The notes under the pieces are model-generated. The model was not told where the DNA came from. It was given only the letters and a program-made list of their open reading frames with translations, and searched no databases. A DNA stretch of 64,000 bases, taken from positions 979,501 through 1,043,500 of the forward strand of contig NBNI01000007.1 in NCBI GenBank assembly GCA_004379135.1. The letters run 5' to 3'. This DNA is from Acidimicrobiales bacterium mtb01 (GTDB lineage Bacteria; Actinomycetota; Acidimicrobiia; Acidimicrobiales; Ilumatobacteraceae). The position numbers and the translations under genes are program-made. Positions 42,751 to 58,736 of this stretch are shown here, piece after piece (position 1 is the stretch's first letter; each line of letters begins with the position of its first letter).

Positions 42751-43767
42751 ATGTTCGATCTGCGCCGCGCCACCCGGCTCGCCATCGCGACCCTGGCCCT
42801 GCCGACCGTCGCCGTCGCCTGCGGAGGCCAAACCGACTCCAACGGCGAGAGCGTCACGGTCTACACCGGTCGCCACTACGGAATCGAGGCGGTGTTCGAC
42901 GAGTTCACCGAAGCCACCGGTATCGAAGTGCGCTTCACGACGGGCTCCGACCCCGAACTGCGCGAGCGGTTGCTGGCCGAGGGCGACAACACACCCGCCG
43001 ATCTGGTGATGACCGCCGATGCGGCGAACATCGAACTGGCATCGCAAGCCGGACTTTTCGCGGCCGTCGACAGCAACACATTGACCTCGGCGATACCCGC
43101 CGAACTTCGTTCTCCCGACAACACGTGGTTCGCCCTGAGTCGTCGCCTGCGCGTGATCATGTACTCGACCGAACGAGTGAGCGAACCACCGACTTCATAT
43201 GCGGCGCTCGGTGATTCCGAGTGGTCGGGCAAGTTGTGCCTGCGGCCGAGCACCCATCCCTACACGCAGTCGCTGGTCGCCTCGCTCATTCTTCATCTCG
43301 GTGACGACGAAGCGCTGAAGGTGGTCGAGTCATGGGTGGCCAACGATCCGCTCTACATCAATTCCGACACCGACATTCTCGAGGCGATCGCGGCCGGTGA
43401 TTGCGATGTCGCGCTCGCCAACACGTACTACCTGCCCCGACTGCTCGCCGACGATCCCGCGTTTCCGGTCGCGATCAGTTGGCCCGATCAGGATTCCAAT
43501 GGTGCTCACGTCAATGTGAGCGCGGCCGGCGTCACCAAATCGGCACCGAACCGCGCCGGAGCAATTCGCCTCCTCGAATGGCTCGCCACCAAGGGTCAAT
43601 CGACCTTCAGCGACGCCAACTTCGAATACCCGGCCGACCCCTCGGTCGCGCCCGCGTCGGCACTCTCGTCGTTCGGGGACTTCGTCGCCGATCTCGCCGC
43701 CGTTCGCGAACTCGGTCGCCTCAACCCCCGTGCCGTCGAGGTCCTGTCGGCCGCGGGCTACGAGTGA
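42751..43767 (+). CDS. Ferric-iron ABC transporter substrate-binding protein
   Basis: The 338-aa exported binding protein is of the FbpA/FutA type. After a signal sequence (about 25 residues, Cys at 25 for lipid attachment) it starts VTVYTGRHYGIEAVFDEF, the standard FbpA beginning with an iron Tyr. The tyrosine pair of the iron site is in LANTYYLPRLL near residue 222. The ATG 42751 is the first in-frame start after the operator. It is coupled to the permease by GTGA. Confidence 0.9.
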   Translation: MFDLRRATRLAIATLALPTVAVACGGQTDSNGESVTVYTGRHYGIEAVFDEFTEATGIEVRFTTGSDPELRERLLAEGDNTPADLVMTADAANIELASQAGLFAAVDSNTLTSAIPAELRSPDNTWFALSRRLRVIMYSTERVSEPPTSYAALGDSEWSGKLCLRPSTHPYTQSLVASLILHLGDDEALKVVESWVANDPLYINSDTDILEAIAAGDCDVALANTYYLPRLLADDPAFPVAISWPDQDSNGAHVNVSAAGVTKSAPNRAGAIRLLEWLATKGQSTFSDANFEYPADPSVAPASALSSFGDFVADLAAVRELGRLNPRAVEVLSAAGYE

Positions 43768-45356
43768 CCACGGCTCTTGCGTCCTTCGCGACCCGACGGT
43801 CGCTACCGGGTTGGGCGGCGATCGTCGCGATCACCGCATCGGTCGCCGCACCGGTGGTCGTCGTCATCTCCTCCATTCTCGATCCCACCCGATCGATGTG
43901 GTCGGAACTGTGGGCCACCCGCCTGCCCGGAATGATCCGTGACACCCTCACTCTGGTCGTCACCGTGGTGAGTGGATCGCTGGTTCTCGGCGCCGGGCTG
44001 GCGTGGCTCGTGACCGCATACGAATTCCCCGCGCGTCGTGTGCTCACGTGGCTCCTCGTGGCTCCGCTCGCCATACCCGGATACGTCGCGGGCTTCGTGT
44101 GGCTCGACACGTTGTCGGGACCACTCGGCGCGCGTGGCGTTCGGAGCATCTGGTTGTGCGCCGCCGCACTGATCGTCACTCTGTATCCGTACGTCTTCTT
44201 GTTCGCACGGGCGTCGTTCAAGGCGCAGGGCATCGACGCGCGCGATGCGGCGAGAACTCTCGGGGTCGGACCCGTCGGCGCGTTCTTCCGAGTCGCACTC
44301 CCCATGGCCCGACCGGCGTTGGCCGCCGGAAGCGCGCTCGTCCTGATGGAAGTGCTCACGGACATCGGCACGGTCAGGCTCTTCAATGTGAGCACCATCG
44401 CCGACGGCGTGATGCGCGTCTGGTTCGGAACCGGTGATCGGGGCGCCGCCGCCGAACTCGCGTGTCTCTTGGTCGTGTCGGCCGCGACGCTCATCGCTCT
44501 CGAAAGAGGCCTGCGCCGGGGCGCTCGATACTCGGCTCGACCCAGCGAGCGGCCGCACTCCCCGATCACGCCGCGGATCGGCGCTCGAGTCGGAGCACTC
44601 GTCGTCTGCGCAACGGTCGTCGGCGTCGCGGTCGCGATTCCGGTCGCACGCCTGGCAGCCTGGGCACTCGCAGCACGACGCTCGGGCAACGCCGTCACGG
44701 TGACCGGTGGAGTGTGGCATCACCTGTCGAGCAGTCTCGTCATCGTTCTCGCCACGTGCGTCGCCTGCATGGGTTGCGGCATCGCGATCGCTCTCCTGGC
44801 CCGCCGACGCGGTTCGATCGGTCGTCTGCTGTCGCGTCTCGCCTCTTTGGGCTACGCCATGCCCGGGCCGGTGGTCGCGGTGGGTGCTCTCATCACATTG
44901 GCGGCCTTCGACCGCACGGGTCTGCTCCCCGACGGCACGGTGCTGATCGGATCGCTCGTCGGCCTGGTGTTCGCACTCACCACTCGCTTCATGGCGGTCG
45001 CGTTCCAAGGCATCGAGGCGGGCCTCGACCGAGTTCCGCAGTCGGCGGTCGCGAGCGCTCGTACCCTCGGCGCTGGTTCCAGCCGGGTCGCCTGGTCGGT
45101 CGAACTCCCCGTCGCGCGCACATCGATCGTGGCGGCCACGGCACTGCTCACCGTCGATCTCACGAAGGAGTTACCGATCACCCTCCTGCTGCGCCCGTTC
45201 GGTTTCGACACCCTCTCGGTGTGGGTCTGGCAAGCCACCTCGGAAAGCCTGTGGGAGCAGGCCGCCGTGCCGTCGCTCGTCATGGTGGCGGTGGGAATAG
45301 TGGCGGTGGGCGCACTTCTCGTCGCCCTCGATCGTGGCGCGGAGGTTGCGTCATGA
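43764..45356 (+). CDS. Ferric-iron ABC transporter permease, two fused modules
   Basis: The 530-aa permease has about twelve helices in two halves, as in FbpB/SfuB. Each half carries an EAA loop for ATPase contact: DARDAARTLGVGPVGAFFRVALPMARPA near residue 165 and ASARTLGAGSSRVAWSVELPVAR near 430. KELPITLLLRPFGFDTLSVWVWQ at the end is a marker of iron permeases. Starts GTG 43764, stops in the ATGA overlap with the ATPase gene. Confidence 0.92.
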   Translation: MTTALASFATRRSLPGWAAIVAITASVAAPVVVVISSILDPTRSMWSELWATRLPGMIRDTLTLVVTVVSGSLVLGAGLAWLVTAYEFPARRVLTWLLVAPLAIPGYVAGFVWLDTLSGPLGARGVRSIWLCAAALIVTLYPYVFLFARASFKAQGIDARDAARTLGVGPVGAFFRVALPMARPALAAGSALVLMEVLTDIGTVRLFNVSTIADGVMRVWFGTGDRGAAAELACLLVVSAATLIALERGLRRGARYSARPSERPHSPITPRIGARVGALVVCATVVGVAVAIPVARLAAWALAARRSGNAVTVTGGVWHHLSSSLVIVLATCVACMGCGIAIALLARRRGSIGRLLSRLASLGYAMPGPVVAVGALITLAAFDRTGLLPDGTVLIGSLVGLVFALTTRFMAVAFQGIEAGLDRVPQSAVASARTLGAGSSRVAWSVELPVARTSIVAATALLTVDLTKELPITLLLRPFGFDTLSVWVWQATSESLWEQAAVPSLVMVAVGIVAVGALLVALDRGAEVAS

Positions 45357-46315
45357 ACGCCTCGGTGGCGTTGCACGTCGACGGCCTTTCGCGATCACTC
45401 GGAGGCAAGCGCATCGTCGACGGCGTGACGCTCACGCTCTCCCGCGGCGAGCTGCTCACGCTGGTCGGGCCGAGTGGCTGCGGCAAGTCGACACTGTTGC
45501 GAATGATCGCCGGACTCGAACCGAGCGACGGCGGCCGCGTGATCATCGACGACCATGACATGTCGTCGACGCCTCCCGAACAACGCCACATCGGTTTCGT
45601 GTTCCAGGACGGTTCGCTTTTCGGTCACCTTCGGGTCGACCAGAACGTCGCGTTCGGCCTCAAACACCTTTCCCGCTCAGAGCGCACCGCGCGCGTCGAA
45701 GCGATGCTCGAACTCGTGCAACTGAGTGGGGTCGCCAGGCGTTATCCGCACCAACTGTCGGGCGGAGAACAGCAGCGCGTCGCCCTCGCTCGTGCCCTGG
45801 CGACCGAACCGCGGTTGATGCTGCTCGACGAACCGTTCGCGAGTCTCGACGAGGTGTTGCGCGAGGAACTTCGCCGGCAGGTGGCCGAAGTGTTGCGGGC
45901 CACCCGGACGCCTTCGATTCTCGTGACTCACGATCGCCACGAAGCGCTGACCCTCGGTGACCGTGTGGCGGTGATGCGCGATGGGCGCATCCAGCAGGTT
46001 GACTCTCCCGAGGCCGTCCACGACCGACCGAGCAATCGCTTCGTGGCCGGTTTCATGGGAGTGGCGTCATTTCTCCCCGACAGCGAGGGAATGCTCATCG
46101 TCGTGCGACCTCACCAGGTCGCCATGACCCCCGGCGGTGACGACGTGGTGCTCTCGTGCGAATTCGCCGGCGCCACGCGTCGTTACACGGTGCGGCGGCA
46201 CGACGGCACCGTGGTTGTGGCCGACGGTGCGTCCTCGGTCAAACTCGCAACGGGCGACGCCTGCACGCTCCAGTTCACGACCGAGCGGCTCCACCGCGTG
46301 GTCGCCGAATCGTGA
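45353..46315 (+). CDS. Ferric-iron ABC transporter ATPase
   Basis: The 320-aa ATPase is of the FbpC/PotA type. Walker A is GPSGCGKST near residue 39, the Q-loop is [12 protein letters not shown], the signature is [16 protein letters not shown] near 136, and Walker B is [13 protein letters not shown]. The C-terminal 80 residues form a TOBE-like regulatory domain ([15 protein letters not shown]). It is the last gene of the iron operon and the last complete gene before the island boundary. Confidence 0.94.
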
Positions 46316-46356
46316 GGTCGATCGAGATTCGCCACACGGACCCGTGTCGGTGCGAG

Positions 46357-46410
46357 TGCCCGGGGTGGGTTTCGAACCCACACGACTCGTGAGAGTCAGG
46401 GGGGTTTAAG
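46357..46410 (-). pseudogene. 3' half of tRNA-Leu(UAA): attachment-site remnant
   Basis: Read on the minus strand, this has the anticodon loop CTTAAAC (anticodon TAA), the 3' anticodon strand CCCCC, and a variable-arm hairpin GACTC-TCAC-GAGTC as in class II tRNAs. It continues with the T arm GTGGG-TTCGAAA-CCCAC and the acceptor strand CCCGGGC plus discriminator A; CCA is not encoded. The 5' half is missing: the five bases before the loop are GAAGT instead of GGGGG, and no GCCCGGG acceptor strand occurs nearby. Site-specific integration into a tRNA anticodon loop leaves exactly this at the far end of the element. Confidence 0.8.
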
Positions 46411-46420
46411 ACTTCACTCC

Positions 46421-46557
46421 CACGTCCGTTGCGTCCGGCACCGTCCGTCTGGCCGGGTCACGTCCGTTGTCGCTGTCCGTCTCGTGCGGTTTTGTCCGTC
46501 CAGGTCCGGTCCGTGCGGCCCGGTCTTGTGCAGGAATTGTGCAGGAATTGTGCAGGG
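46421..46557. repeat. Direct-repeat cluster beside the att site
   Basis: Two repeat families are packed here without a gene. GTCCG occurs eight times in about 95 bp (46423-46515), including CACGTCCGTTG twice (46421-46431 and 46459-46469). TTGTGCAGGAA occurs twice in direct tandem (46526-46536, 46537-46547), followed by TTGTGCAGGG (46548-46557). Integrase arm-binding sites beside an att core have this kind of layout. Confidence 0.7.
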
Positions 46558-46585
46558 CCTCACTGGTCTCCTGAAGCGACCACCA

Positions 46586-47443
46586 TCATTGGCAGCCACC
46601 GCTGCATGATTCTCCCGAGGACTGCGCTAGCACCCGGCGAGCAGAGCGAACCACCGCCTCGTCCACCATCGAACCGTCTTCGTCGGTGATCACACCTTGG
46701 CCACCCTTCAGGGCTTCCTCGTAGCGGTCCAGAACTCGCCGAGCGTCGGCGATCTCTGAACGGGTCGGAGTGAACACTCGATGGATCCTCGGCAACTGCT
46801 TCGGATGGATGGCAAGCTGCCCGCTGAAGCCAGCGTCTCGAAGCTGGAGTCCTTCAGTTTCGAAACGCTCCAGGTCATTGAGGTCCACACTCGCGGGTCC
46901 GATCGGCCCACGGAGTCCCGATCGGGCTGAAGCGGCCACAACCTGCATTCGAAGCGGCCAGAGGGCGTGCATCGTTCCAGCGCGTACGCCGAGGTCGGCG
47001 CACAGGTCAACCTCGCCAAGCGCAAGTTGGACAACGCCCGGTGTCGAACACACAGGATCTAAGTCGCGGAGCCCTGCGGCCGACTCGATCAGTGCCCACA
47101 ACCGAACGGAGCCGCCGCGCGACTCGATTGCTTCGGCGACCATCGAGATCGAGCGGTGATCGGCCTTCGGAACGCACGTGATCGGACCTCCTACCGAGTG
47201 GATTGCAGCGAGGTCCTCTGCTCCAGCCTGGCCGGCGTTGATTCGGACTGCGAGGTCGCCGTGCCAAAGGTCATTCGCGATGGCCGCCGCAACAGCCGCC
47301 CTAGCAGCCGACTTTCCCGAGGGAGCCACGCTGTCCTCAAGGTCCAGTATCAGGAGATCAGGGCGATCCTCGATTCGAAGTCTGCGGAGCTTGTCAACGA
47401 GTTCCAGCTGGTCACCAGGGACGAACAGCGCGGATCTGATCAT
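46586..47443 (-). CDS. CitE-like HpcH/HpaI aldolase (CoA-ester lyase)
   Basis: The 285-aa TIM-barrel protein is of the citrate-lyase beta / malyl-CoA lyase family. It starts MIRSALFVPGDQ and has the conserved DLLILDLEDSVAPSGKSAAR near residue 30, then AVRINA near 66, VPKADH near 92, and WALIESAAGLRDL with the metal Glu near 118. LGEVDLCADLGV near 150 supplies the second acidic ligand. Members cleave or form malyl-, methylmalyl- or citramalyl-CoA type esters. The start ATG 47443 is chosen on family length. It is the last gene of the seven-gene operon. Confidence 0.87.
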   Translation of the reverse strand: MIRSALFVPGDQLELVDKLRRLRIEDRPDLLILDLEDSVAPSGKSAARAAVAAAIANDLWHGDLAVRINAGQAGAEDLAAIHSVGGPITCVPKADHRSISMVAEAIESRGGSVRLWALIESAAGLRDLDPVCSTPGVVQLALGEVDLCADLGVRAGTMHALWPLRMQVVAASARSGLRGPIGPASVDLNDLERFETEGLQLRDAGFSGQLAIHPKQLPRIHRVFTPTRSEIADARRVLDRYEEALKGGQGVITDEDGSMVDEAVVRSARRVLAQSSGESCSGGCQ

Positions 47444-47516
47444 GGTCGAACCGCGCCTCTGCCCGCACCCTCGCGACGCTTCGGAGCCACGTCGCCGCCA
47501 AAGGTGGCCATCTTCA

Positions 47517-48731
47517 TCACGTCCTCTGCTCCCGTCGATCCTCCCCGACGGCAGGTACCCACGACCGCTCCAATCTCGCACCGTCGATGTCGAAGGGATG
47601 ATGCAGCGTCTCGACGAGGTGGCCACCGGGCAACTCTGTCGGAACAAACCGCTTCCTCGTCCGAAGCTGCTCGTGGTGCCAAACATCATTCAGTGAGTTC
47701 AGACGAGCGTTCGCTATTGACGCCGCTGACAACGCTTTCCTCACTTCGCCGGCTCCACGACTCAGCAGTAGGCCCTGTACAAGTTCCTCGAGCTCGTCGA
47801 CCCTCGCGATGCGATCGGCGTTCGAACGAAATCGAGCGTCGTCTGCCAACCGAGCATCCTCGAGCACCTCGGCGCAGAAGCGTCGCCATTCCGCATCGTT
47901 CTGAACCGCGATCAGCACCTCGCTGGAATCGGCCAGCCGGAACGTTCCGTATGGACTGATCGCGAAATGCCTCCGTGCACTTCGCGCCGATGTTGAACCA
48001 ACTGCCTGCGCTTGCAGCAGCGGTGCTGACATCCACTCGGCGAGTGCATCGAGCATCGAAACCGACACGACCGCACCTTCCCCCGTTCGATGACGGCGGG
48101 CCAGACACGCAAGGACAGAACTGAGGGCATACATGCCCGCCGCGATGTCCGCAACCGAGAAGCCGACCTTGCACCTCAGGTCGCCGTCGCCGCACACGTC
48201 GAACACACCAGCCTCCGCCTGAACGGCTAAGTCATAGGCGGTGTCATCGGAACGCGGTCCTCCACGGCCGTAGCCGGACACCTCACACGCAACGATCTTG
48301 GGGTGACGTGCGTGAACGGACTCAGCGTCAAGGCCCAGACGGCGCGCAGCCGTCGGGGACAGGTTGTGGAGGTACACGTCCGCCTCCGAAATGAGTTCCT
48401 CAAGACGGTCGCGCTGGCCCTTGATGTCGAGCTCGATCGAGTGCTTTCCGCGATTGGCCCAGACGAAGAAGGCAGACTGGCCACCTACATTGCGGTCGTA
48501 GCTTCGCGCGAAGTCGCCGGTCAACGGACGCTCCACCTTCAGCACCGTCGCGCCAAGGTCGGCAAGCTGTCGCGAAGCGAAAGGAATCGCGATCGCCTGT
48601 TCGACACTTACCACCGTGGTTCCCTCAAGCGGAGGAAGGCCGGGCGCGGCTGCACTGGCACGAGGAACGACTCCGGAGACATCCGCCGTGTCTGCTGACG
48701 TGACGGACTCGGTCCAACCGCCGGTCATCAT
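47517..48731 (-). CDS. CaiB/BaiF family (class III) CoA transferase
   Basis: The 404-aa class III CoA transferase moves CoA between carboxylic acids. Markers are VVSVEQAIAIPFASRQLADLGA, LKVERPLTGDFAR near residue 68, YDRNVGGQSAFFVWANRGK near 80 and the Asp nucleophile in AYDLAVQAEAGVFDVCG near 170. This gene should activate the acid produced by the monooxygenase step. The start overlaps the FMO stop as ATGA; a second ATG follows immediately. Confidence 0.88.
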   Translation of the reverse strand: MMTGGWTESVTSADTADVSGVVPRASAAAPGLPPLEGTTVVSVEQAIAIPFASRQLADLGATVLKVERPLTGDFARSYDRNVGGQSAFFVWANRGKHSIELDIKGQRDRLEELISEADVYLHNLSPTAARRLGLDAESVHARHPKIVACEVSGYGRGGPRSDDTAYDLAVQAEAGVFDVCGDGDLRCKVGFSVADIAAGMYALSSVLACLARRHRTGEGAVVSVSMLDALAEWMSAPLLQAQAVGSTSARSARRHFAISPYGTFRLADSSEVLIAVQNDAEWRRFCAEVLEDARLADDARFRSNADRIARVDELEELVQGLLLSRGAGEVRKALSAASIANARLNSLNDVWHHEQLRTRKRFVPTELPGGHLVETLHHPFDIDGARLERSWVPAVGEDRREQRT

Positions 48732-50221
48732 GTGAACTCGAGGCAGCCGTCATCGAGGTCGGCGTTCGGTAGCGCAGTTCGCTCAGCAACGTAGTCCTGT
48801 GTGTGTCGCCACTCGGGGGTATCGAGACGCTTGGGCATCAGGTGCATCGATCGCTTCAGGTAACCGGGGCTGAAATCAGCGGGATCGATCCAATCAAGCC
48901 GAGAGAGCCCCTCATCTGCCGGCCGAAGTCGCGGGATCACTCGCGCCGCGCCCTTCTCTCGCATATGCATCAGGAGTCGGCAGACGAGATCGGCTACGAG
49001 GTCAGCGCGGAGAGTCCAGCTCGAGCGGAAGTACCCGAACACCCAGGCGAGATTTGGAACATCGGTGAACATCATCCCGCGGTACGAGACAGTCTCAGCA
49101 AAGTCGACGGGCTGGCCATCGACTACGAAGCGAACGCCGCCCAGCACCGACAGGTCGAATCCGGTTGCCGTGATCACAACATCGGCGTCCAGGTCTCTTC
49201 CTGATCTGGTTCGAACCCCCGTGGCCGTGAACGTTTCCACTTCGTCCGTCACGACCTCGACCTTCCCCGAAGAGATGGCCTTGAACAGGTCGCCGTCAGG
49301 CACGAAGGCGACGCGTTGACGCCAGGGCATGTACTTCGGTGTGAAGTGGGTCTCGACGTCGTAACCCTCGGGGAGCAGAGATCGAACGTTCTCAATCAAG
49401 CTGCGAGCCGTACCCTCAGGGTCAGCGAACGCCTTCCGCGTGAACGTGTCCGCGTCGGCGATGATCTTTCGGCGAACGATCTCGTGAATCCACTCCGGCG
49501 GGACATCGAGGCTGACGAGGAGCTCGGCCAGGTCATTGCCGTTTCGATCGGACACGAAGTACGTGGGTGACCGCTGCAGCATCACCACATGAGCAGAGTC
49601 CGCCGCAATCGCCGGTATCACCGTTGCCGCCGTGGCCCCCGAGCCGATGACGATGATGCGCTTGTCAGTCCACGACATCCCGTCCGGCCAGTGCTGTGGA
49701 TGCACGATCTGCCCCTCGAAGTCGCTCGTCCCACTCCATTCCGGGGTGTAACCGACGTCGTGGTGGTAGTAGCCCTGACACATCCAGAGGAAGCGGGCGG
49801 TGAAGTGGAGCGGCGTCTCGGAGCCCTCCCGGGTTGCTCGGACGTGCCAGAGGTTGTCGTTGGACTCCCAGCGAGCGTCCGAAACGTGATGGCTGTATCG
49901 AATGTGGGGGGCGAGGTCCCGCTCTTCGACGACTTCCTCGAGATACCGAAGGATCTCCTGCCCCGACGCGATTGGGGCTCCGACCCACGGCTTGAATCGA
50001 TAGCCGAACGTGAACAGATCACTGTCTGACCGCACGCCTGGGTACCGGTGCAAATGCCAGGTGCCGCCAAAGGTGTCGTAGCGCTCAAGAATCACGAACG
50101 ACAGGTCTGGCAGTTGCTCGGTGAGATGAGCTGCCGCACCGATTCCGGAGATGCCTGCGCCGACAATCAGAACATCCACGTGTTCAATCAGCGCCTGGCC
50201 ATCGTCTTCCACTTGACTCAT
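48728..50221 (-). CDS. FAD-dependent Baeyer-Villiger-type monooxygenase
   Basis: The 497-aa flavoprotein has FAD loop VGAGISGIG (residues 20-28), FGGTWHLHRYPGVRSDSD (51-68) and the full Baeyer-Villiger fingerprint FxGxxxHxxxWP as FEGQIVHPQHWP (168-179). The NADPH loop is VIGSGATAATV near 192. Such enzymes insert oxygen beside a carbonyl (ketone to ester or lactone) and resemble EthA-type proteins. It lies 56 nt after the nitronate monooxygenase gene and overlaps the CoA transferase. Confidence 0.92.
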   Translation of the reverse strand: MSQVEDDGQALIEHVDVLIVGAGISGIGAAAHLTEQLPDLSFVILERYDTFGGTWHLHRYPGVRSDSDLFTFGYRFKPWVGAPIASGQEILRYLEEVVEERDLAPHIRYSHHVSDARWESNDNLWHVRATREGSETPLHFTARFLWMCQGYYHHDVGYTPEWSGTSDFEGQIVHPQHWPDGMSWTDKRIIVIGSGATAATVIPAIAADSAHVVMLQRSPTYFVSDRNGNDLAELLVSLDVPPEWIHEIVRRKIIADADTFTRKAFADPEGTARSLIENVRSLLPEGYDVETHFTPKYMPWRQRVAFVPDGDLFKAISSGKVEVVTDEVETFTATGVRTRSGRDLDADVVITATGFDLSVLGGVRFVVDGQPVDFAETVSYRGMMFTDVPNLAWVFGYFRSSWTLRADLVADLVCRLLMHMREKGAARVIPRLRPADEGLSRLDWIDPADFSPGYLKRSMHLMPKRLDTPEWRHTQDYVAERTALPNADLDDGCLEFT

Positions 50222-50277
50222 CTGTCTCTTGTTCCTCCGTACCGGTCAGCCACGCGAGTGTCCGCGTAGGCAGCGAA

Positions 50278-51414
50278 TCACTCGTCGAGGAGCCGGCTCA
50301 GCCCGCTGACCGCGTCGACGAACTCATCCACCATCTCGAACACGACCTGGGCCGCAGGCTTCGCCAGATTCATCGAGCCGACCACCTGCCCCACCCAGTA
50401 GTTGGCGAGGGCCTCGGCGCCCGAGCCCGGCTGATGAGCGGCTCTGTCAATGGCTTTGAGAGCCTGATCGACGAGCAGTGGCTGCAACGGCATCGGCAAC
50501 GGTTCGGGCGCGTCGGGCGCGGCCCACGCATCGGTCCACGCCGAGCGAAGCTGCCGGCTGTACTTGCCGGTTCTCGACTTCGATCGGACCGTGTCAGAGG
50601 AGGACGCCTCGAGCATCTTCTTCTTCACAGTCGGATGAGTCTCGGCCTCGTGCGTCGTCAGCCAGACGGAACCGCACCACACACCCGACGCCCCGAGCGC
50701 CATCGCGGCTGCCATCTGTCGCCCTCGCCCGATGCCGCCGGCGCCGAGCACCGGTACGTCACCCGCCGCGTCGACGATCTCGGGGATCAGCACCATTGAT
50801 CCGATCTCCCCAGTGTGTCCACCAGCCTCGCTGCCCTGGGCGATGAGTACGTCAACGCCCGCCGCGACATGGCGGGCGGCGTGCTCGGCTTTGCCTGCTA
50901 ACGCCCCCACTCGCGCACCGACAGCCTTGGCTCGCTCAATCATCCATTCTGGAGGCGGCCCGAGCGCGTTCACCACCAGAACCGGTCGATGGTCGAGGGC
51001 GATGTCCAGCAGCGCCCCGGCGGCGCGCGACGATGCCGCCATCGGACTGTCCAGGTTCAGGGCGGCTTGCTCAGGCGCGGGGTCGAGCGGTGGAACTCCG
51101 AATCGGTCAAGCAGCTCGCTGACGAACCGGTGGTGGCCGTCCGGAATTCGCGCGAGGAGCTCCCCGACCGTTGCACCCCCTTTGCTGTCCCCGTCGTAGC
51201 GCATCGGAACGATGAGGTCGATCCCGTACGGACGGCCGGCCAGCTGATCATCGATCCATGCCAGATCGATCTCCAACTGGCGACGGCTATGGGCCGCTGC
51301 TCCGAGCACACCGAGGCCGCCGGCCTTCGTGACCGCAACCACAACGTCACGACAATGGCTGAAAGCCATGATCGGAACGTCGATTTCGAACATGTCGGTG
51401 ACCTGGGTCCTCAT
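50278..51414 (-). CDS. Nitronate monooxygenase (2-nitropropane dioxygenase family)
   Basis: The 378-aa FMN TIM-barrel protein has CRDVVVAVTKAGGLGVLGAA near residue 21, GIDLIVPM near 64 and the class signature AQGSEAGGHTGE near 193, whose His is the catalytic base. The phosphate-binding VLGAGGIGRGRQMAAAMALGASGV follows. NMO oxidises alkyl nitronates; many relatives have other, unknown substrates. The C-terminal 110 residues form a helical cap. It follows the ATPase gene by 94 nt and is transcribed in the same direction. Confidence 0.88.
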   Translation of the reverse strand: MRTQVTDMFEIDVPIMAFSHCRDVVVAVTKAGGLGVLGAAAHSRRQLEIDLAWIDDQLAGRPYGIDLIVPMRYDGDSKGGATVGELLARIPDGHHRFVSELLDRFGVPPLDPAPEQAALNLDSPMAASSRAAGALLDIALDHRPVLVVNALGPPPEWMIERAKAVGARVGALAGKAEHAARHVAAGVDVLIAQGSEAGGHTGEIGSMVLIPEIVDAAGDVPVLGAGGIGRGRQMAAAMALGASGVWCGSVWLTTHEAETHPTVKKKMLEASSSDTVRSKSRTGKYSRQLRSAWTDAWAAPDAPEPLPMPLQPLLVDQALKAIDRAAHQPGSGAEALANYWVGQVVGSMNLAKPAAQVVFEMVDEFVDAVSGLSRLLDE

Positions 51415-51508
51415 GGTTCTCCTTGTTCGTCTTGAGTCATGGATTGGTCATGGAGTCGGCGTCGCTCGATGTCGTGCGCAATGCCGGCCGCATTCGACGC
51501 GATCGCCA

Positions 51509-52219
51509 CTACCCGAGGTAGTACTGCCGAAGCGATGCAGGGTCGGCACGAAGTTCGGCTATCGGCGGCTCGGCGACGAGCTCGCCCCGCCGGAGCACGT
51601 AGGCCCGATCGAGAATCCCCAAAGCAAGATTGACGTGCTGCTCGACGAGCAGCACTCCGAGTCCAAGTTCTGTCGCCATGGACCTCACCGTGGCCATCAG
51701 TCGCGCCGTGAGAATCGGAGCGAGTCCCAGACTGAGTTCGTCGATCAGCAGAACGGACGGCCCACTCACAAGTGCCTTCGCGAGCGAAAGCATCTGCTGT
51801 TCACCACCCGACAAGAGCATGGCCCTGCGTGATCGCAAGGGCTCGAGTGCGGGGAGCATGGCGAGGACGGCGTCGATCGACATCGGACTCTGATCGCGCG
51901 CGCAGACGCGGAGGTTCTCGGCAACGGACAGACGTCCGAACACACCCCGCCCTTCGCGGACAAGGCCGAGGCCTGCCTTCACTCGCGCGGCCACTGTGGC
52001 CCCACTGATCTCGACGGTGCCTAGTCGGACCTCGCCGCTGGCCACTGGCGCGATTCCCATGATGCCCTTGAGCGTCGACGACTTGCCAGCACCATTCGGG
52101 CCAAGCAGTCCGACGACCTCGCCCGGACTCACCGACAGCGATACGCCCCGCACCGCAGCCGCAGCGCCGTACCGCACCGACAATGCGTCAACCGCGAGGC
52201 TGGCCCCACCGCTATGCAT
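51509..52219 (-). CDS. LivF-like ABC ATPase of the island importer
   Basis: The 236-aa ATPase has Walker A GPNGAGKSS near residue 42, LSGGEQQMLSLAKALV near 135, Walker B VLLIDELSLGLAP and VEQHVNLAL. It therefore belongs to the LivF branch. Start ATG 52219 overlaps the permease stop by 8 nt; the frame extends upstream only through shadow sequence. No LivG partner is encoded nearby. Confidence 0.9.
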   Translation of the reverse strand: MHSGGASLAVDALSVRYGAAAAVRGVSLSVSPGEVVGLLGPNGAGKSSTLKGIMGIAPVASGEVRLGTVEISGATVAARVKAGLGLVREGRGVFGRLSVAENLRVCARDQSPMSIDAVLAMLPALEPLRSRRAMLLSGGEQQMLSLAKALVSGPSVLLIDELSLGLAPILTARLMATVRSMATELGLGVLLVEQHVNLALGILDRAYVLRRGELVAEPPIAELRADPASLRQYYLG

Positions 52220-54173
52220 CGGACGTCCCCACCTGACCCGTGCCGCGGCTGAGCCGAGTCTTGATTCGCGAGGCCAGTAGACGATTTTGAGCACTCATAC
52301 CCTCAGGATTCGCGAGCACGCTGACCACAAGAGCCAGTCCTGCGACCAGCTGGTAGTTCTCGCCGAGGTGAAGGAATCGGCTTGCTGCGAAATAGGCGAG
52401 CCCGAGCGGCGCGAGCACCCCAGCGAACACGGCTCCTTCGATGCTGGTGATTCCACCGAGAAAGGTGAACGTCAGGACCGACAGGCCAGCGAAGACTGTG
52501 AAGGAGTCCGCCGAGAGCTGACCTCGGCTGTATCCGATCAGAACTCCGGCCAATCCTGCGAGAGCAGCCGAGATCGTGAACGCCGCCATCTTCGTGCGGG
52601 CCACATGAATTCCGACGGACGCCGCAGCGCGCTCGTCAGAGCGAATGGCCAGCAGCGTCGCACCGAACGACGATCGAATGAGGAACCGCACTCCGAGCAG
52701 CGAGGCCACCAAGAGCACCAGGACCAGCAGGCCGAACTGAATGCGAGCGAGGCTCGAGCCTGACCGAATGCCGAGATCGATCCCGAAGAGCCTGGGGTTC
52801 GAAATGAGGTTGCCGGCCGGAGGCGAGAGCTGCGGATTTCGGAACACGAACTGCTCGGCGGTGACGGCGCCCGCGAGTGTGACGATCGCGAGTTGGGTCC
52901 CTCGGATCCGCAACGCCGGCAGTGAGACCAGGAAACCCACCGCTGCCGCGGCAGCAATCGCCACGATCGGGGAGACGGGAAACCTGAGGGCAGTGCGCCG
53001 CTCGACGGCAGACAGCACGAAGCCTGCGACGCCAGCGAGTGCCACGGGCGCAAGAGAGATCTGCCCTACGAAGCCGGTGATCACAACCAGCGAGAGCGAC
53101 ATGATCGCCATGATCATCGTGGTGATGACGGCGAAGCGGAGTGACCCGCCCGACACCATGAGAGCCACGAGGAACATCATCGTGAGAAGCGCGGTGGCGC
53201 GACCGCCGAGCGAGTCCCGCGAGACCGGAGGCATGGCGCTTGATGCCCCCTCGCCACGGCCAGGAAGGTGACGGCCGTTGATCGCGAGTGCGACCACGAC
53301 GAGTATGAACGGAGCCGCATCGACCATTCCAGCAGCAGCCCATTTCGGCCACCAGGTTTGGGTTGACGTGTACGTCAGCAACGACTGGACGACTCCGAGG
53401 GCCAGCCCACCCAAGCAGGCAACGGTGATCGATCGGAACCGTGCCAGCAGTGCTACCGCCATCGCGGGGACGATCATCAGGGTGTACGAGGTTGGAGTGA
53501 GGCTTCTCGTCGGAGCGGCGAGGATCAGGATCAGCCCACCTGCGAACCCGGCAATCACCCATACAAGGGCGTTGAGTCGAGAGGGAGACAATCCGGCGAG
53601 CTGAACTCCGACCTCGTCCTGGCTCGCTGCGCGAGTTGCGAGGCCGGCTTTCGTGAAGTGGAAGTAGGCCGCCACAAGCATCCCGAGAACCACAACCGCC
53701 AAAGCCAGAAATAGACGGTCGCGAGGAACAACGACACTGCCGATCGCGAGGGGCTCGTTCGGCAGGACGTTGCCCACGACCCTCGGGTCGGTCCCGAATC
53801 GCAGGGCTACCCAGGCCTGCATGCACAGCAGCACACCAATTGAGGCAACCGTCTGCGCGAGTACGGACGTTCGGCGGAGTGGTCGGAAGACCAACCAGTA
53901 GGTCGCGAGAGAGACAACAACGGCCACGGCGACTCCAAGCACCAGTGCGGTCATCACGGAGGTCGGTCCGATGTCGATCGTTCCCACTGGAAGGACGAGG
54001 CGTCCCGTCTTGGTGAGCTCGTCGAAGACAAACGGCGCCCACATGACCATTGCGGCGTAGCCGAAGTTGACTGCCCCGGTGCTGCCGGCTGTTGTGACGA
54101 TTCCGATGGCAAGCCCGGCAGCGATCGCACCCGAGCCGAGACCGAGAATGGCGAATGCAAGAATCTGGTTCAT
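52212..54173 (-). CDS. Fused LivH-LivM permease
   Basis: The 653-aa membrane protein joins both Liv permeases. The N-terminal half (about 1-300) is LivH-like (GSGAIAAGLAIGIVTTAGSTGAVNFG, then KAGLATRAASQDEVGVQLAG). The C-terminal half (about 330-650) is LivM-like (SLSLVVITGFVGQISLAPVALAG, SLPALRIRGTQLAIVTLAGA, RSSFGATLLAIRSDERAAASVGI). Around 17 transmembrane segments are expected. In the core genome the two are separate genes, so this is an independently acquired system. Confidence 0.92.
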   Translation of the reverse strand: MNQILAFAILGLGSGAIAAGLAIGIVTTAGSTGAVNFGYAAMVMWAPFVFDELTKTGRLVLPVGTIDIGPTSVMTALVLGVAVAVVVSLATYWLVFRPLRRTSVLAQTVASIGVLLCMQAWVALRFGTDPRVVGNVLPNEPLAIGSVVVPRDRLFLALAVVVLGMLVAAYFHFTKAGLATRAASQDEVGVQLAGLSPSRLNALVWVIAGFAGGLILILAAPTRSLTPTSYTLMIVPAMAVALLARFRSITVACLGGLALGVVQSLLTYTSTQTWWPKWAAAGMVDAAPFILVVVALAINGRHLPGRGEGASSAMPPVSRDSLGGRATALLTMMFLVALMVSGGSLRFAVITTMIMAIMSLSLVVITGFVGQISLAPVALAGVAGFVLSAVERRTALRFPVSPIVAIAAAAAVGFLVSLPALRIRGTQLAIVTLAGAVTAEQFVFRNPQLSPPAGNLISNPRLFGIDLGIRSGSSLARIQFGLLVLVLLVASLLGVRFLIRSSFGATLLAIRSDERAAASVGIHVARTKMAAFTISAALAGLAGVLIGYSRGQLSADSFTVFAGLSVLTFTFLGGITSIEGAVFAGVLAPLGLAYFAASRFLHLGENYQLVAGLALVVSVLANPEGMSAQNRLLASRIKTRLSRGTGQVGTSDA

Positions 54174-54223
54174 TCGTCAGCTCGGCTCGGGACGCGATCG
54201 GGCAACACGGGTGGGGGCCCGCA

Positions 54224-55564
54224 CTAGCCCTGGGGGGAGACGACGATGAACTTGTCGGTGACTGCGTTCCGTACGCCCGACTCTGTGGTCTTGAACAGCA
54301 GCAACTGGTTTCCGCAGGCCGTCTCTCCCTTCCAGGCGGAACCGTCGCAGCTGATCACTGGGCCGAGGAAGCCCTCAAAGTTCTTGGTGGACTTCAGCGT
54401 CTTCAGAATGGCCGATCCAGACAGATCGCCGCCACCGTCCTCCGTAAGGATTCGAGCGAAGTTCATCGTGTCTGCGAACCAGCCGAGGGCGAAGCTGTCC
54501 TTCTCCGCAAACTGAGACTGATCGATGGCCTTCATCGCATCCTTGTACATGGCGACCTCTGCTTGCCGGTCCGCAGGGGTGTTCGGATCGGTCGGCGACC
54601 ACAGATCGGAGTAGGTGAGCACTCCTACGGCAGCTGGACCAAGGATGGTGCTGAAGAGCGAACACGCTGCGGCGAAGATCGGTCCTTTGTGCCCGGCCGT
54701 CTGCACGGCGGGGATCATGCTCAGGCAGTCGACCTCGCTCGCCGACGGGCTGCCGATCACGTCGGGGTTTTCCGACATCGCTGTCGCGGCCAACACACTC
54801 CAATCCGCCGCGGTAGCGCTGTAGTAGATGACCTTGAACTTGAGACCGAGCGACTTTGCCGACGGGTCCAGCACGGAATCTGTGAAGTCACGAGACGACG
54901 GCGTGTCGGCGAGGAAGTAGACGACTGACTTCGCACCCTGCTCGGCAAAGTACTGGAGCGGCCCGAGGCCGGCAGCCGGCGCGGAGACTCCGAAGAGAAC
55001 AACGTTGGGATCTTGCCGCTGTTGCGGACCAAATGCGGCGTGCCCGAAGACTGGGATACCCGCATCGCTGAGAATCGGGAGCATTGCATCCGCTGAAGGA
55101 TCGACGCCCAGTTCGACGGCCTGAACGCCGGCCTCGACGAACTTGTTGGCGCAGTCGACCGAGCTCTCGGGCGATGCATCGACCGCGCACGGGACGAGTT
55201 CGATCGGGCGCCCACCCACGCCGTTCCTCTTCTCGTTGATCAGCTTCACCGCGGCCTCCGCTCCGTAGCGGACCTCAGGCAGCGAAATGGCGCCACCTTC
55301 GAGGTTCGAGAACCCGATCTTCAGCGGCTCGCCCGTTGCGGCGCCGGTCTTCACTGGGTCGTCCCAGGCGCGTGCCGCTGCCGGAGTCGTCGACTCCGCA
55401 GGTGAGGAGGTCTCGACGACAGTCGTTGACGAATCAACGGTCGAACCGGCCGTCGATGTGGAGCCCTTATCGACCGAAGTCGTCGACGACTGTCCGTCGT
55501 CGGAACATCCCGCTAGTGCGATCAGGGCCGCCACCGCCGCCACAAGTACACGCTGACTTCTCAT
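54224..55564 (-). CDS. Liv-type ABC substrate-binding lipoprotein of the island
   Basis: The 446-aa binding protein has a lipoprotein signal (VAALIALAGCSDD) and a Ser/Thr-rich linker of about 50 residues. The Peripla_BP_6 domain begins GEPLKIGFSNLEGGAISLPE. CVDAS, FGHAAFGPQQ and KSVVYFLADTPSSRDF are in the ligand-binding lobes. Four Cys in the mature domain suggest disulfides. ATG 55564 is favoured because the hydrophobic signal then starts in the usual place; ATG 55579 is an alternative. It is the first gene of the seven-gene operon. Confidence 0.87.
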   Translation of the reverse strand: MRSQRVLVAAVAALIALAGCSDDGQSSTTSVDKGSTSTAGSTVDSSTTVVETSSPAESTTPAAARAWDDPVKTGAATGEPLKIGFSNLEGGAISLPEVRYGAEAAVKLINEKRNGVGGRPIELVPCAVDASPESSVDCANKFVEAGVQAVELGVDPSADAMLPILSDAGIPVFGHAAFGPQQRQDPNVVLFGVSAPAAGLGPLQYFAEQGAKSVVYFLADTPSSRDFTDSVLDPSAKSLGLKFKVIYYSATAADWSVLAATAMSENPDVIGSPSASEVDCLSMIPAVQTAGHKGPIFAAACSLFSTILGPAAVGVLTYSDLWSPTDPNTPADRQAEVAMYKDAMKAIDQSQFAEKDSFALGWFADTMNFARILTEDGGGDLSGSAILKTLKSTKNFEGFLGPVISCDGSAWKGETACGNQLLLFKTTESGVRNAVTDKFIVVSPQG

Positions 55565-55850
55565 CCCCGGAACCCCCATCCAGTACGACTTGGTGAATTG
55601 GTTCCCGGATGATCATTGAACCCTTCCGGCCAAACCAGTGGGGAGTGCCCTAGACCTCAACGCACCACCGTCGAGGTCCGGGGCTCGATCTCCTCGGACG
55701 TAAAGGCGCAGCGTCCCATGTCACCCATGCGAGGCACGCGAGCCTCGTTCGGATTCCTCCTGGCCACAGCTGCAGGCGCGCTCGAATCCGAGTCGTTCGC
55801 GTGACTCGCAGCAGCCCGATCTCGTGAGCGCCTCACGACGTGATGTGCGT
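55565..55850. other. 286-bp intergenic region holding the operon promoter
   Basis: Apart from the shared motif at 55638 no feature is evident. A 62-codon plus-strand frame (55616-55804) lacks a ribosome-binding site and coding character. Confidence 0.5.
55638..55657. promoter_or_regulatory. Shared island motif, copy 1 (GTGGGG-N4-CCCTAGACCT)
   Basis: The 20-bp motif lies 74 bp before the start of the binding-protein gene. Sixteen of 20 positions match copy 2 at 58567, in the same orientation to the minus-strand operon. It contains GGG-N4-CCC inverted arms and may be an operator or a promoter. Confidence 0.6.
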
Positions 55851-56687
55851 TCAGCGGCCGCCGGCTTCGACGAGGCCAAGTCGCTGTCGCATCGCAGGAA
55901 GGAACTCGCGATGCGTCAGGGCGTACATCGAGTCGGCGTCGAGGGCCGCAATCAGCCGCTCGGCAGCTGTCGTGGGAGAGATGCCGTTACGAAGCGACTG
56001 TGCCAGCGCTCGTGTCGTGCTCTCCTGCTGCTCGGCGTCCCACTCTACGCCCGGCGGTCGGCTGCGATAGCCCTTGGAGATGTCGGTGAGGACCTCACCG
56101 GGGGCGAACACCACGACCCGGATTGCGCTTCCAACCGCCACCAACTCCTGCTGGAGCGCCTCCGAGTAGCCGACAACCGCGTGCTTGCTAGCTGTGTAGA
56201 TGCTGGTGAACGGGGTCGCAATCAGTCCTGCAACCGATGCTGTGTTCACGATCAGTCCCGAGGATCCATGCCGAAGCATCATGGGGACGAAAGATCTGAC
56301 TCCGTTCGCCACGCCCAGAAGATTGACGCCGAGCACCCAGTTCCAGTCGGGTACGGACATCTCCCACGCAAGCCCAACGGGGCCGACCACTCCGGCGTTG
56401 TTGAAAAGAGCATCAACTCGACCAAACCGCTCTTCGACCGAAAGAGCGCACTCTCGCATCGCGGTCGAGTCGGCCACGTCCACTCGGAGTTGCAGGCTTT
56501 CGACCCCGGGCGGCAGAGCCGCGGTAGTCGCAGCGAGAGACGAATCATCGATGTCGACCAAGGCGAGCCGGCATCCCCGTTCGGCGAGAAGAACCGCGAG
56601 CGCCTGACCGAGACCGCTTCCGGCCCCGGTGACGACGACGACACTGTCGGTGCTCGGAGCGATCGACAGACTACCGAGCGACTCCAC
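55851..56687 (-). CDS. Short-chain dehydrogenase/reductase
   Basis: The 278-aa classical SDR has VVTGAGSGLGQALA (TGxxxGxG), FNNAGVVG, the catalytic Ser in VNTASVAGL and Y-x-x-x-K in SIYTASKHAVVG, so it should be active. GTG 56687 is chosen: it sits 4 nt after the stop of the enoyl-CoA hydratase gene. The frame continues further upstream within that gene. In this operon it could oxidise a 3-hydroxyacyl-CoA or an alcohol intermediate. Confidence 0.9.
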   Translation of the reverse strand: MESLGSLSIAPSTDSVVVVTGAGSGLGQALAVLLAERGCRLALVDIDDSSLAATTAALPPGVESLQLRVDVADSTAMRECALSVEERFGRVDALFNNAGVVGPVGLAWEMSVPDWNWVLGVNLLGVANGVRSFVPMMLRHGSSGLIVNTASVAGLIATPFTSIYTASKHAVVGYSEALQQELVAVGSAIRVVVFAPGEVLTDISKGYRSRPPGVEWDAEQQESTTRALAQSLRNGISPTTAAERLIAALDADSMYALTHREFLPAMRQRLGLVEAGGR

Positions 56688-56691
56688 TTCC

Positions 56692-57492
56692 CTAGCGCCC
56701 TTCAAAGTTCGGCGGACGCCCCTCGACAAACGCAACGATCCCCTCATGGAAGTCGCGAGTCTGCATCAGACGCTCGCTCTGCATGACCATGTGGTGGGTG
56801 TGGCTCGCGAAGTCCTCGGTGAGGCCATGCCGGAAGAGCCGCTTGATGGCACGCACGGCGAGCGGTGCATTCGCGGCGATCTCTGCGGCCATCGCCTGAA
56901 CGGTTGTCATCAACTCACCGTCAGGTACGACAAGACTCAACAGGCCGAGCCGGAGCGATTCCTCGGCGCTCAGCTCTCGACCCAGGAAGGCGATCTCCGT
57001 CGCGCGAGACCAACCGACAAGGCGGGGCAGGTACCAGGTCCCTCCACTTTCGGGGATAGCACCTCGCTTTGCGAACACCGGCAGAAGACGAGTCGAATCG
57101 CTGCCGACACGCATGTCGCAACCCAAGGCGAGATCGAAGCCGTAGCCCGCGACGGCTCCGTTCAGAGCCGCAAGGATCGGCGTATCGAGCTCGAACAGAA
57201 TCGAGGTGGGGAGTTCTCGCGTGTCGCTGGTGTACGACGTGAGGCCGTCACCCCACTCGGAGGCGCCCCCCTTCGTCATCGATGCCTTGAGATCCAGCCC
57301 TGCGCAGAAGCCCTTCCCGGCTCCGGTCAGCACGATGCACCGAATCCCTGGGTCTCGGTCAGCGCGCTTCAGGGCGTCCGCCAACTCCTCGAGCATCAGG
57401 CGTGAGATCGCGTTCCTCCGCTCCGGCCGGTTGAGTGTGACCGTGCAGACCATGTCCTGCGTTGAGTAGAGGATGTGTTGATAGTCGGTCAT
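56692..57492 (-). CDS. Enoyl-CoA hydratase/isomerase family protein
   Basis: The 266-aa crotonase-fold protein has VTLNRPERRNAIS near residue 18, GAGKGFCAGLDLKA near 58 (CoA/oxyanion loop) and AALNGAVAGYGFDLALGCDMRVG near 103. FAKRGAIPESGGTWYLPRLVG near 134 carries the catalytic-Glu region. ATG 57492 has AGGGA upstream; a longer start at 57534 would run into the preceding gene. Confidence 0.9.
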   Translation of the reverse strand: MTDYQHILYSTQDMVCTVTLNRPERRNAISRLMLEELADALKRADRDPGIRCIVLTGAGKGFCAGLDLKASMTKGGASEWGDGLTSYTSDTRELPTSILFELDTPILAALNGAVAGYGFDLALGCDMRVGSDSTRLLPVFAKRGAIPESGGTWYLPRLVGWSRATEIAFLGRELSAEESLRLGLLSLVVPDGELMTTVQAMAAEIAANAPLAVRAIKRLFRHGLTEDFASHTHHMVMQSERLMQTRDFHEGIVAFVEGRPPNFEGR

Positions 57493-57503
57493 GGTCGGTC
57501 CCT

Positions 57504-58511
57504 TCAGATCGCTTTGACAAGGTCTGCCGACCACTGTTCGTAGGTCCGCGCGTAGGGCGCGTACACCGCCACCCTGTCGAACTGCCCGTCGAAGCGATCA
57601 CGGAGTCGCTCAGCGATTGAATCCCGCGGGCCGACGATGGCGAATGCGTCGAGCATCTCATCGGTGATCAACTCGCCCATCTCTCGCCAGCGTCCCTGCT
57701 TCGACATTGCGTTGAGTTCGGGCTGAACATCGCCCCATCCGTGGACATCGAGCACCGCTCGATACGCGGGGGTCGATCCGTAGAAGGCAATCTGGCGCCG
57801 AACGGCTGTCGCAGCGGCCACCATCTCCTGTTCGTTGTCCCCCGTGACCATGAAGACCGGGCAAGCCACCGTGAAGTCGCTTCGGGCGCGACCACCTCGA
57901 GCCAGCTCCCGTTCGATCACAGGTTGTGTCACCGACTCGAAGTAGAGCTTTGTGGTGAAACCGTGCACCAGGATCCCATCCGCCACCTCCGCTGCGACTG
58001 CAGTCATCCGCTCCCCGACCGCAGCGAGCACGATCTTCGGCGGACCGTACTCACAAGGGCCAGGGTTGAAGAACGGGGTCATGAGCGTGTGGGTGTAGAA
58101 CTCGCCCCGGAAGTCCAACGGCTCGCGTTCGTTCCAGCAACGCCAGATCGACTTCGTCGCAAGGATGAGTTCGCGCATCCGGTCTGCCGGCCGAAACCAT
58201 GGCGTGCTGAAGCGCGCCTCGTTGTGTGCTCGAATCTGCGAGCCGAGTCCGAGCACGAATCGTCCGCCCGAGCTGAGTTGAAGGTCGTGGCCAACGTTGG
58301 CGAGGTGCATCGGGGATCGCGGAAATGCCACGGCGATGCCGGTCATCAGGTCGACTCGGTTCGTCGAGGTGGCCGCCACCGCCAGTGGCATGAACGGGTC
58401 GTGCGATGTCTCCGCGGCAATCAGCCCGTCAAAGCCGAGCGCCTCCAGGTGCTCCGCCTCGGTTCGTACGTCCCGCCCCATCGCCGTGGTGAGACTCACA
58501 TCGATCTTCAC
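57504..58511 (-). CDS. LLM-class F420-dependent oxidoreductase (luciferase-like)
   Basis: The 335-aa TIM-barrel flavin/F420 enzyme has GFDGLIAAETSHDPFMPLAVAA near residue 28, NRVDLMTGIAVAFPRSPMHLA near 52 and LSSGGRFVLGLGSQIRAH near 81. These are typical of bacterial luciferase-like enzymes that use reduced F420. The genome makes F420 (fbiA, cofE, cofC in this window), which supports the cofactor. GTG 58511 is preceded by GGAGG. It heads the three-gene operon. Confidence 0.88.
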   Translation of the reverse strand: MKIDVSLTTAMGRDVRTEAEHLEALGFDGLIAAETSHDPFMPLAVAATSTNRVDLMTGIAVAFPRSPMHLANVGHDLQLSSGGRFVLGLGSQIRAHNEARFSTPWFRPADRMRELILATKSIWRCWNEREPLDFRGEFYTHTLMTPFFNPGPCEYGPPKIVLAAVGERMTAVAAEVADGILVHGFTTKLYFESVTQPVIERELARGGRARSDFTVACPVFMVTGDNEQEMVAAATAVRRQIAFYGSTPAYRAVLDVHGWGDVQPELNAMSKQGRWREMGELITDEMLDAFAIVGPRDSIAERLRDRFDGQFDRVAVYAPYARTYEQWSADLVKAI

Positions 58512-58566
58512 ATCTTCCTCCCGGTCGTCTCGGAGGGACCATAGAGATCAGTTGAATTCGACAGAT

Positions 58567-58586
58567 GTGGGGTTCTCCCTAGACCT
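58567..58586. promoter_or_regulatory. Shared island motif, copy 2 (GTGGGG-N4-CCCTAGACCT)
   Basis: The motif lies 56 bp before the LLM gene on the minus strand and 151 bp before the divergent deformylase operon. It has the same orientation to the minus-strand operon as copy 1 at 55638. Confidence 0.6.
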
Positions 58587-58736
58587 GACCGGATCGTCGT
58601 TGCACACCTTCCTCTCGTGACGAGGCACGGTCATACTCATCGCACTCGGGCGGCGCCGGGGCACGACTGAGACAGTCATTCAGGATTGGTTCTCTGACCG
58701 CCAACAAATGCGCTAGTGATCCAGGAGGGGACATCC

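Follow-up and report, generated by a model that had tools for sequence, protein, structure and literature searches.

We analyzed a window of 64,000 nucleotides on contig NBNI01000007.1 (C1:979501-1043500, C1 denoting that contig) and found that a tRNA-Leu(UAA) fragment at window positions 46356-46410, minus strand, almost certainly marks the distal end of an integrative and conjugative element (ICE) of 88 kb, where it forms the attachment junction, and that the working tRNA-Leu(UAA) of this genome is chimaeric. The tyrosine integrase of the element would have recombined the element's attachment site with the host tRNA-Leu(UAA) within a 14-bp core. The host 5' half would have been kept and a new 3' half supplied by the element, giving a chimaeric working tRNA, and the original 3' half would have ended up 88 kb away at the far end; 3 of its 42 positions are now unlike those of the relatives. 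The assembled sequences themselves show both junctions, the site without the element in two relatives, which half is native, an open integrase gene and genes of conjugation type.

The displaced tRNA half and its intact counterpart

Read by eye from 46410 to 46356 on the minus strand, the fragment has the layout of a class II tRNA from the anticodon loop onward: the loop itself, the 3' side of the anticodon stem, the variable and T arms and the 3' acceptor strand, then the discriminator A at 46357 and one further letter (46356). As expected for a tRNA fragment, ARAGORN called no tRNA gene over the window, and Rfam gave no match there at gathering scores. A 17-base T-arm pattern with up to two mismatches occurred once in the window, compared to 0.03 occurrences expected by chance. 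Aligned over 55 bases with positions 33-87 of the intact tRNA-Leu(UAA) of G011, a genome of the same genus, the fragment shows 94.5% identity (E 1.2e-19), and a 5' tRNA half, sought beside it in the sequence and by blastn, was absent. The original prediction of a tRNA-Leu reduced to its 3' half and cut in the anticodon loop was thus confirmed. The extent proposed for it, 46357-46560, has to be shortened, as 46357-46410 is tRNA and 46411-46560 belongs to the element's own end. A weak tRNA-Sec match on the plus strand (46338-46427; 26.3 bits versus a cut-off of 47) was attributed to the tRNA arms themselves.

The genome (2.56 Mb, 7 contigs, 97.7% complete) yielded 45 RF00005 matches on 36 loci, and ARAGORN, applied to those loci, called a single tRNA-Leu(taa), intact, at C1:1113907-1113991 on the minus strand. 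This gene, the only tRNA-Leu(UAA) called intact in the assembly, lies to the right of the window on the same contig and strand as the fragment. The two have in common a 14-bp attachment core, CTTAAACCCCCCTG, which covers the anticodon loop and the 3' anticodon stem and is located at 46397-46410 (minus strand) in the window and at C1:1113946-1113959 in the intact gene, a core-to-core distance of 88,049 bp; strand exchange would have occurred in the anticodon loop. In the 133.5 kb around the element, blastn with this tRNA and that of G011 detected the intact gene and the window fragment only, with no second displaced fragment, and RF00005 placed no tRNA gene between the cores save the intact one spanning the right core. 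Unconstrained RNAfold gave no cloverleaf for the intact copy, nor for that of G011; by eye, the variable arm and T stem in the 3' half of the working tRNA do pair.

Integration into an anticodon loop, with an intact tRNA restored at the other end and a tyrosine integrase adjoining it, had been foreseen from the window, and both the tRNA, to the right of base 64000, and the integrase, directly behind it, were found. The accompanying expectation that its 3' half would match 46357-46410 held only for the 14-bp core and scattered positions, since the 3' half that came with the element is a different one. Past the core, the displaced half equals the G011 tRNA in 39 of 42 alignment columns and the intact copy of its own genome in 30 of 43, while that intact copy equals G011 in 33 of 43. 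The variable-arm letters of the displaced half, CTCTCACGAGTCG, are those of G011 and of a further genome of the genus, G001. Since the displaced half is closer to the relatives than to the intact copy of its own genome, it is the native half. This comparison is direct sequence evidence that the working tRNA-Leu(UAA) is a chimaera, composed of a native 5' half and a divergent, element-side 3' half and made by the integration; it is presumably functional. In a search for the donor of the foreign half, an exact 24-base string from it was present in 4 of 330 loci, all copies of this same locus, and a 37-base string occurred in no viral contig.

To describe the surroundings, ORFs across the element and its flanks were numbered g0-g119. 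In G011 the site occurs without the element, in the order g96, tRNA-Leu(UAA), g20, g19, g18, g17, g16. The order in G001 is g98, g97, g96, tRNA-Leu(UAA), then 2.15 kb containing a methyltransferase and a LysR-type gene, followed by all 21 genes from g20 to g0. No match to g21-g95 was obtained in these stretches (E <= 1e-20, >40% identity), with the exception of two ABC-ATPase matches (g25, g40) that fall on g1 and g2. The binding-protein ABC-transporter operon at 42751-46315, plus strand, is chromosomal by Pfam and synteny and lies outside the element; its ATPase gene stands directly behind the intact tRNA in G011. Chromosomal genes had been proposed on this 3' side, which the Pfam matches and the synteny in G011 and G001 confirm; the word "iron" used for them is the label of the original prediction. 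The two relatives behave as anticipated for genomes without the island: both keep the upstream gene, the tRNA and the operon together, neither has genes 46586-63953 at this place, and the intact tRNA does not stand at an unrelated locus.

Beyond the fragment, the distal end of the element (46411-46585), its attP arm side, has no tRNA match and no ORF of at least 100 aa. It carries three CCTGCACA repeats on the minus strand (46527-46556, starting at 46527, 46538 and 46549 with 11-bp spacing), and two further copies, also 11 bp apart, are located beside the integrase gene at C1:1113826 and C1:1113837. These five are the only copies in the 88,070 bp of the element, all in one orientation and confined to its two ends; the rest of the 133.5 kb contains one copy, outside the element and on the opposite strand. 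We regard the repeats as candidate arm-type integrase sites. Short tandem repeats with other letters were seen by eye before several related integrases.

Gene content and relatives of the element

The element extends past the window to C1:1113959 and contains 75 called ORFs between the cores, 62 of which were covered by the Pfam scan. Its tyrosine integrase gene begins about 100 bp 3' of the intact tRNA (C1:1112670-1113791 as called; an ATG five codons upstream, at C1:1113806, is the likelier start) and encodes Arm-DNA-bind_4, Phage_int_SAM_3 and Phage_integrase domains. The gene is open, and its R, H-x-x-R, H and Y motifs align to those of solved integrases, presumably in the roles assigned to these residues. 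On the ORF map, a backbone side (g54-g95, C1:1064654-1113791) encodes ArdC, a TrwC relaxase (E 4.6e-67) and a VirD4-like, TraG-type coupling protein (both T4SS-DNA_transf and TraG-D_C pass the Pfam cut-offs). The VirB4-like model NF045971 is matched, below its curated cut-off, by two adjacent ORFs, each over a separate part, and one of them also belongs to the SCO6880 family, above cut-off. The backbone further includes a Toprim protein, an M23/transglycosylase protein, a LysM protein, a subtilase, SAF-domain proteins and a set of Tad-like genes, namely T2SSE (TadA-like, below the TadA cut-off), two T2SSF-like genes and a TadE-like gene. Present-day excision and transfer of the element may be supposed.

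By codon model, the 72 element genes scored below the 44 flanking genes (medians 0.170 and 0.258; p = 2.8e-8), the model having been trained on the same region. TTA codons are rare, with 12 among the 27,338 codons of the element and 2 among 13,920 in the flanking genes. A bldA-like role for them was rejected: of the five in g54-g95, the three with an aligned homologue in the groundwater relative described below are not TTA there, and the other two have no homologue. A phage origin of the integrase was likewise rejected, with the best-listed phage relative 34.6% identical and all 2518 matched phage records below 60%; among viral contigs, the best of four relatives was 35% identical. The relaxase is less than 60% identical to each of the best 5000 plasmid records.

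Two backbone genes are defence-like. One encodes a HamB-like helicase (g66) that, together with a 298-aa protein encoded upstream of it, occupies C1:1078518-1082848. The 298-aa protein had no PADLOC match at E <= 0.001, and the two are possibly a Hachiman system with a divergent partner. The other encodes a Mokosh-like helicase (g92, C1:1107238-1110249) with a C-terminal DUF559/MTES_1575-like stretch.

The cargo side (g21-g53, C1:1025897-1064404) begins in the window behind the distal end. Minus-strand genes there encode an HpcH/HpaI-family CoA lyase (46586-47689, PF03328), a family III CoA-transferase (47517-48731, PF02515), an FAD-dependent monooxygenase-like protein (48728-50221, PF00743), a nitronate monooxygenase-family protein (50278-51414, PF03060), a branched-chain-type ABC transporter consisting of an ATPase, a 653-aa permease ORF and a binding protein (51509-55579; PF00005, PF02653, PF13458), and a short-chain dehydrogenase, an enoyl-CoA hydratase and a luciferase-like F420-type oxidoreductase (55851-58511; PF00106, PF00378, PF00296, with TIGR03617 above cut-off). 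They are followed on the plus strand, by Pfam, by a peptide deformylase, an alpha/beta hydrolase, a polyketide-cyclase-like protein, an M17 aminopeptidase and a class III aminotransferase (58716-63435), and on the minus strand by a MaoC-like dehydratase (63525-63953, PF01575). The whole cargo side adds a second luciferase-like oxidoreductase, further MaoC-like proteins, a thiolase-like protein, an acyl-CoA ligase, two TetR-type regulators and a type I restriction-modification system. The catabolic cluster predicted on the 5' side of the fragment is therefore real, consisting largely of CoA-type catabolic genes and an ABC transporter by Pfam, and the element as a whole looks like an ICE with catabolic cargo at its distal end. 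Relatives of the 653-aa permease ORF at E <= 1e-100 were found in 37 other genomes (198 searched, own included), the best 49% identical, and name no donor of the cargo. The peptide deformylase gene (58716-59354) lies near the M17 aminopeptidase and class III aminotransferase genes, and may perhaps have a resistance or peptide-processing function.

We compared the element with contig JACQZZ010000013.1 (L114) of a groundwater actinomycete metagenome-assembled genome (MAG) over 94 kb (60001-153762), at E <= 1e-15 and >45% identity. Of the 42 backbone ORFs g54-g95, 33 are present there in the same order behind the MAG's own tRNA-Leu(UAA), 50-97% identical (integrase 92%, relaxase 84%, ArdC 72%); the missing ones are g58, g60, g64-g66, g77, g78, g92 and g94, which include both defence-like genes. 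Within the 94 kb, none of g21-g53 was matched at >45% identity, and a distal end of the MAG's element could not be located. In 12 genomes reached through integrase loci (own included), TrwC matches at E <= 1e-20 were obtained in nine, often on other contigs, so that a common backbone is established for the groundwater MAG only. The findings put on record an ICE-like family, its cargo exchangeable, from a little-known order of actinomycetes.

Integrase relatives at E <= 1e-60 turned up in 46 of 298 genomes from the order, ours among them; a named genome collection contributed 55 loci. Twelve loci with a full or nearly full integrase (L114-L125, 52-92% identity) all belong to actinomycete MAGs, six of them Acidimicrobiia or Acidimicrobiales. 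Among the 19 integrase entries with at least 296 aa aligned at >=48.9% identity, 18 have tRNA-Leu(UAA) directly in front, and the remaining one (L120) is cut by a contig end; as L085/L118 and L119/L059 are the same records, these are 17 distinct places, 16 with the tRNA. This count leaves out seven loci at >=48.9% identity with at most 200 aa aligned (L140, L147, L151, L156, L160, L161, L162), none with tRNA-Leu(UAA). At 46.1% identity or less, a single entry (L091) has tRNA-Leu(UAA), and the others have other tRNAs or none. Judged by these loci, the integrase clade and tRNA-Leu(UAA) go together. The same integrase clade also occurs in another genus, that around genome G228, and no half-swap could be demonstrated there; the integrase-bearing G228 itself has the 3' half type of three genus mates and differs from three others. 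A displaced tRNA-Leu(UAA) 3' half, from the core onward, was seen on contig 74 of G228 (L326:2128-2178), 2 kb behind an intact copy, and contig 86 has another intact tRNA-Leu(UAA), adjoining an integrase.

Alternative explanations and comparison with known systems

Group I introns are known from the anticodon loop of tRNA-Leu(UAA), and the break in the fragment falls at just that position, which would suit the 3' exon of an intron-containing gene. This reading deserves practically no credence: no 5' exon lies beside the fragment, the Rfam group I intron is absent from the window at gathering scores and from 46100-46700 up to E 10, and it is refuted both by the intact gene elsewhere and by the uninterrupted gene at this place in two relatives. 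An assembly or binning artefact, with foreign DNA joined to the chromosome by the assembler, would be consistent with an assembly in several contigs and with codon use in the element unlike that of the flanks. With seven contigs, misassembly keeps a very slight chance, a point we count against the ICE reading. However, both junctions fall within the tRNA core, the same repeats mark both ends, the integrase is oriented as required, and a native 3' half at the distal end is not what a chance misjoin would leave, so that an artefact is very improbable.

The possibility that the 88 kb are composite, an ICE backbone (about C1:1064654-1113791) joined to a 39-kb cargo block from one or more other elements, concerns the history of the element and is compatible with the fragment being an ICE junction. 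It derives from the groundwater relative, where most backbone ORFs are present and g21-g53 go unmatched above 45% identity over the 94 kb examined. Against it, one core pair and one repeat set bracket the whole 88 kb, no second displaced tRNA fragment lies inside, and a cargo zone at one end is ordinary in ICEs; we consider a composite origin rather unlikely. The preferred explanation, integration of a single ICE at tRNA-Leu(UAA), has also to accommodate that the two tRNA copies have in common 14 bp and scattered positions, not the whole 3' half. This counts against it, being below the 30-45 bp of identity typical, though not defining, of mycobacteriophage sites at which a tRNA is rebuilt (PMC10865867). 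Also on that side are the incomplete VirB4-like matches below cut-off, the distal end missing from the 94 kb of the groundwater contig, and the half-swap that could not be demonstrated around G228.

The architecture itself is textbook. In the Islander catalogue (PMC4383910), 2083 of 3919 islands are anticodon-centred and 3760 have a 3' fragment, and the element resembles the islands described there in its tyrosine integrase, the intact tRNA at the integrase end and the displaced 3' fragment at the other. The features of a tRNA-targeting island are present, namely intact tRNA and fragment in the same orientation, an adjoining integrase, an empty site and a tRNA rebuilt by the ARAGORN call. In contrast to the Islander islands (PMC4383910), the tRNA and fragment here have only a 14-bp core in common, and much of the remaining 3' half is unlike. 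A 2011 report described T4SS-type ICEs with TrwC in Actinobacteria (PMC3218068), its search criteria being an integrase, a TrwC relaxase, a VirD4-like coupling protein and a VirB4-like ATPase. Compared with these TrwC/MOBF elements (PMC3218068), the first three components are present here and the VirB4-like ATPase is partial; unlike them, the element here has Tad-like genes (T2SSE, T2SSF, TadE) in its backbone and resides in an uncultured actinomycete, probably one of the Acidimicrobiales. The FtsK/SpoIIIE-type translocase, hallmark of AICEs, had no Pfam match in the 62 of 75 element ORFs scanned.

Mycobacterium smegmatis phages, in a 2024 description (PMC10865867), typically have 30-45 bp in common with the host site, the 3' half of the tRNA included, and in phage Boilgate the predicted tRNA is still rebuilt with five mismatches in 43 bp. 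The same paper describes tRNA-dependent lysogeny, in which a core of about 10 bp is combined with a whole phage tRNA of the same isotype (PMC10865867). Our element is like this second system in having a short core in a host tRNA (14 bp here) surrounded by putative arm-type sites. It differs in that the tRNA is not rebuilt there, whereas here it is rebuilt with a divergent 3' half and the element has no tRNA gene inside (PMC10865867). Here both tRNA halves can be traced, the displaced one being native and the working tRNA a chimaera, which makes this a third outcome beside near-exact rebuilding and tRNA-dependent lysogeny. No report of a divergent tRNA 3' half swapped by integration was found among the titles and abstract openings covered, most subscription papers lying outside that scope.

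Variation of tRNA-Leu(UAA) in the genus

The gene for tRNA-Leu(UAA) was recovered in 20 of 24 genomes of the genus, own included. Counting one copy per genome, and thus leaving out a second copy in G010, 1 of 45 columns varies in nucleotides 1-45 and 21 of 41 in the rest (pi 0.0053 versus 0.2145). Without our genome (19 genomes), the column counts are the same, with pi 0.0053 versus 0.1964 and p = 9.7e-8, a value that ignores shared descent. Three other leucine tRNAs served as controls, and none has a significant break between its 5' and 3' parts: the variable columns are 2/43 versus 3/41 for Leu(GAG) (18 genes, p 0.67), 3/42 versus 4/41 for Leu(CAG) (19 genes, p 0.71) and 0/43 versus 3/39 for Leu(TAG) (17 genes, p 0.10). 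Because shared descent makes such p-values too small, our argument is the contrast with the control tRNAs. Repeated half-replacement by mobile elements would explain this pattern, the swap being shown for our genome only. Tentatively, we propose that the 3' half of this tRNA may evolve by site-specific recombination, with integrating short-core elements time and again exchanging all that lies 3' of the anticodon stem and leaving the foreign half in place once they decay, one half of the tRNA being inherited horizontally and the other vertically.

Drift of the long variable arm and T stem, with a swap in our genome only, stands at about an even chance as an explanation of the same variation. 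Within a class II tRNA, most variation is expected in the variable arm, and three of the 3' halves have the T stem in common and differ mainly in that arm. Of the 21 tRNA-Leu(UAA) loci of the genus, only our own has the integrase nearby, the sequence behind the tRNA being under 30 bases long at three loci and 382 bases at one. Integrase matches at E <= 1e-20 occur in 3 of 24 genomes, all but our own at most 35% identical, and no integrase was seen beside the tRNA in seven other genomes among the 10 scanned of 20 listed ORFs (nine behind the tRNA, one on the upstream side). Drift accounts less readily for the contrast with the three control tRNAs, or for the nearly identical g97 copies that adjoin different 3' halves in G003 and G023, the one contrast for which we used the g97 tree (good support for 3 of 11 inner branches). 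The distance from the tRNA to the next common gene behind it, where contigs extend that far, ranges from about 15 bp in G011 to several kb. Past elements may have replaced the half in other genomes of the genus as well; if the pattern has the same cause as the swap in our genome, mobile elements would be a main source of sequence change in one half of a conserved tRNA.

Contig 326 of G010 (L289) carries two tRNA-Leu(UAA) genes 2.7 kb apart, at 3102 and 5785. In the second copy, acceptor-stem letters are changed on both sides and are still paired, and one letter of the anticodon loop is changed.
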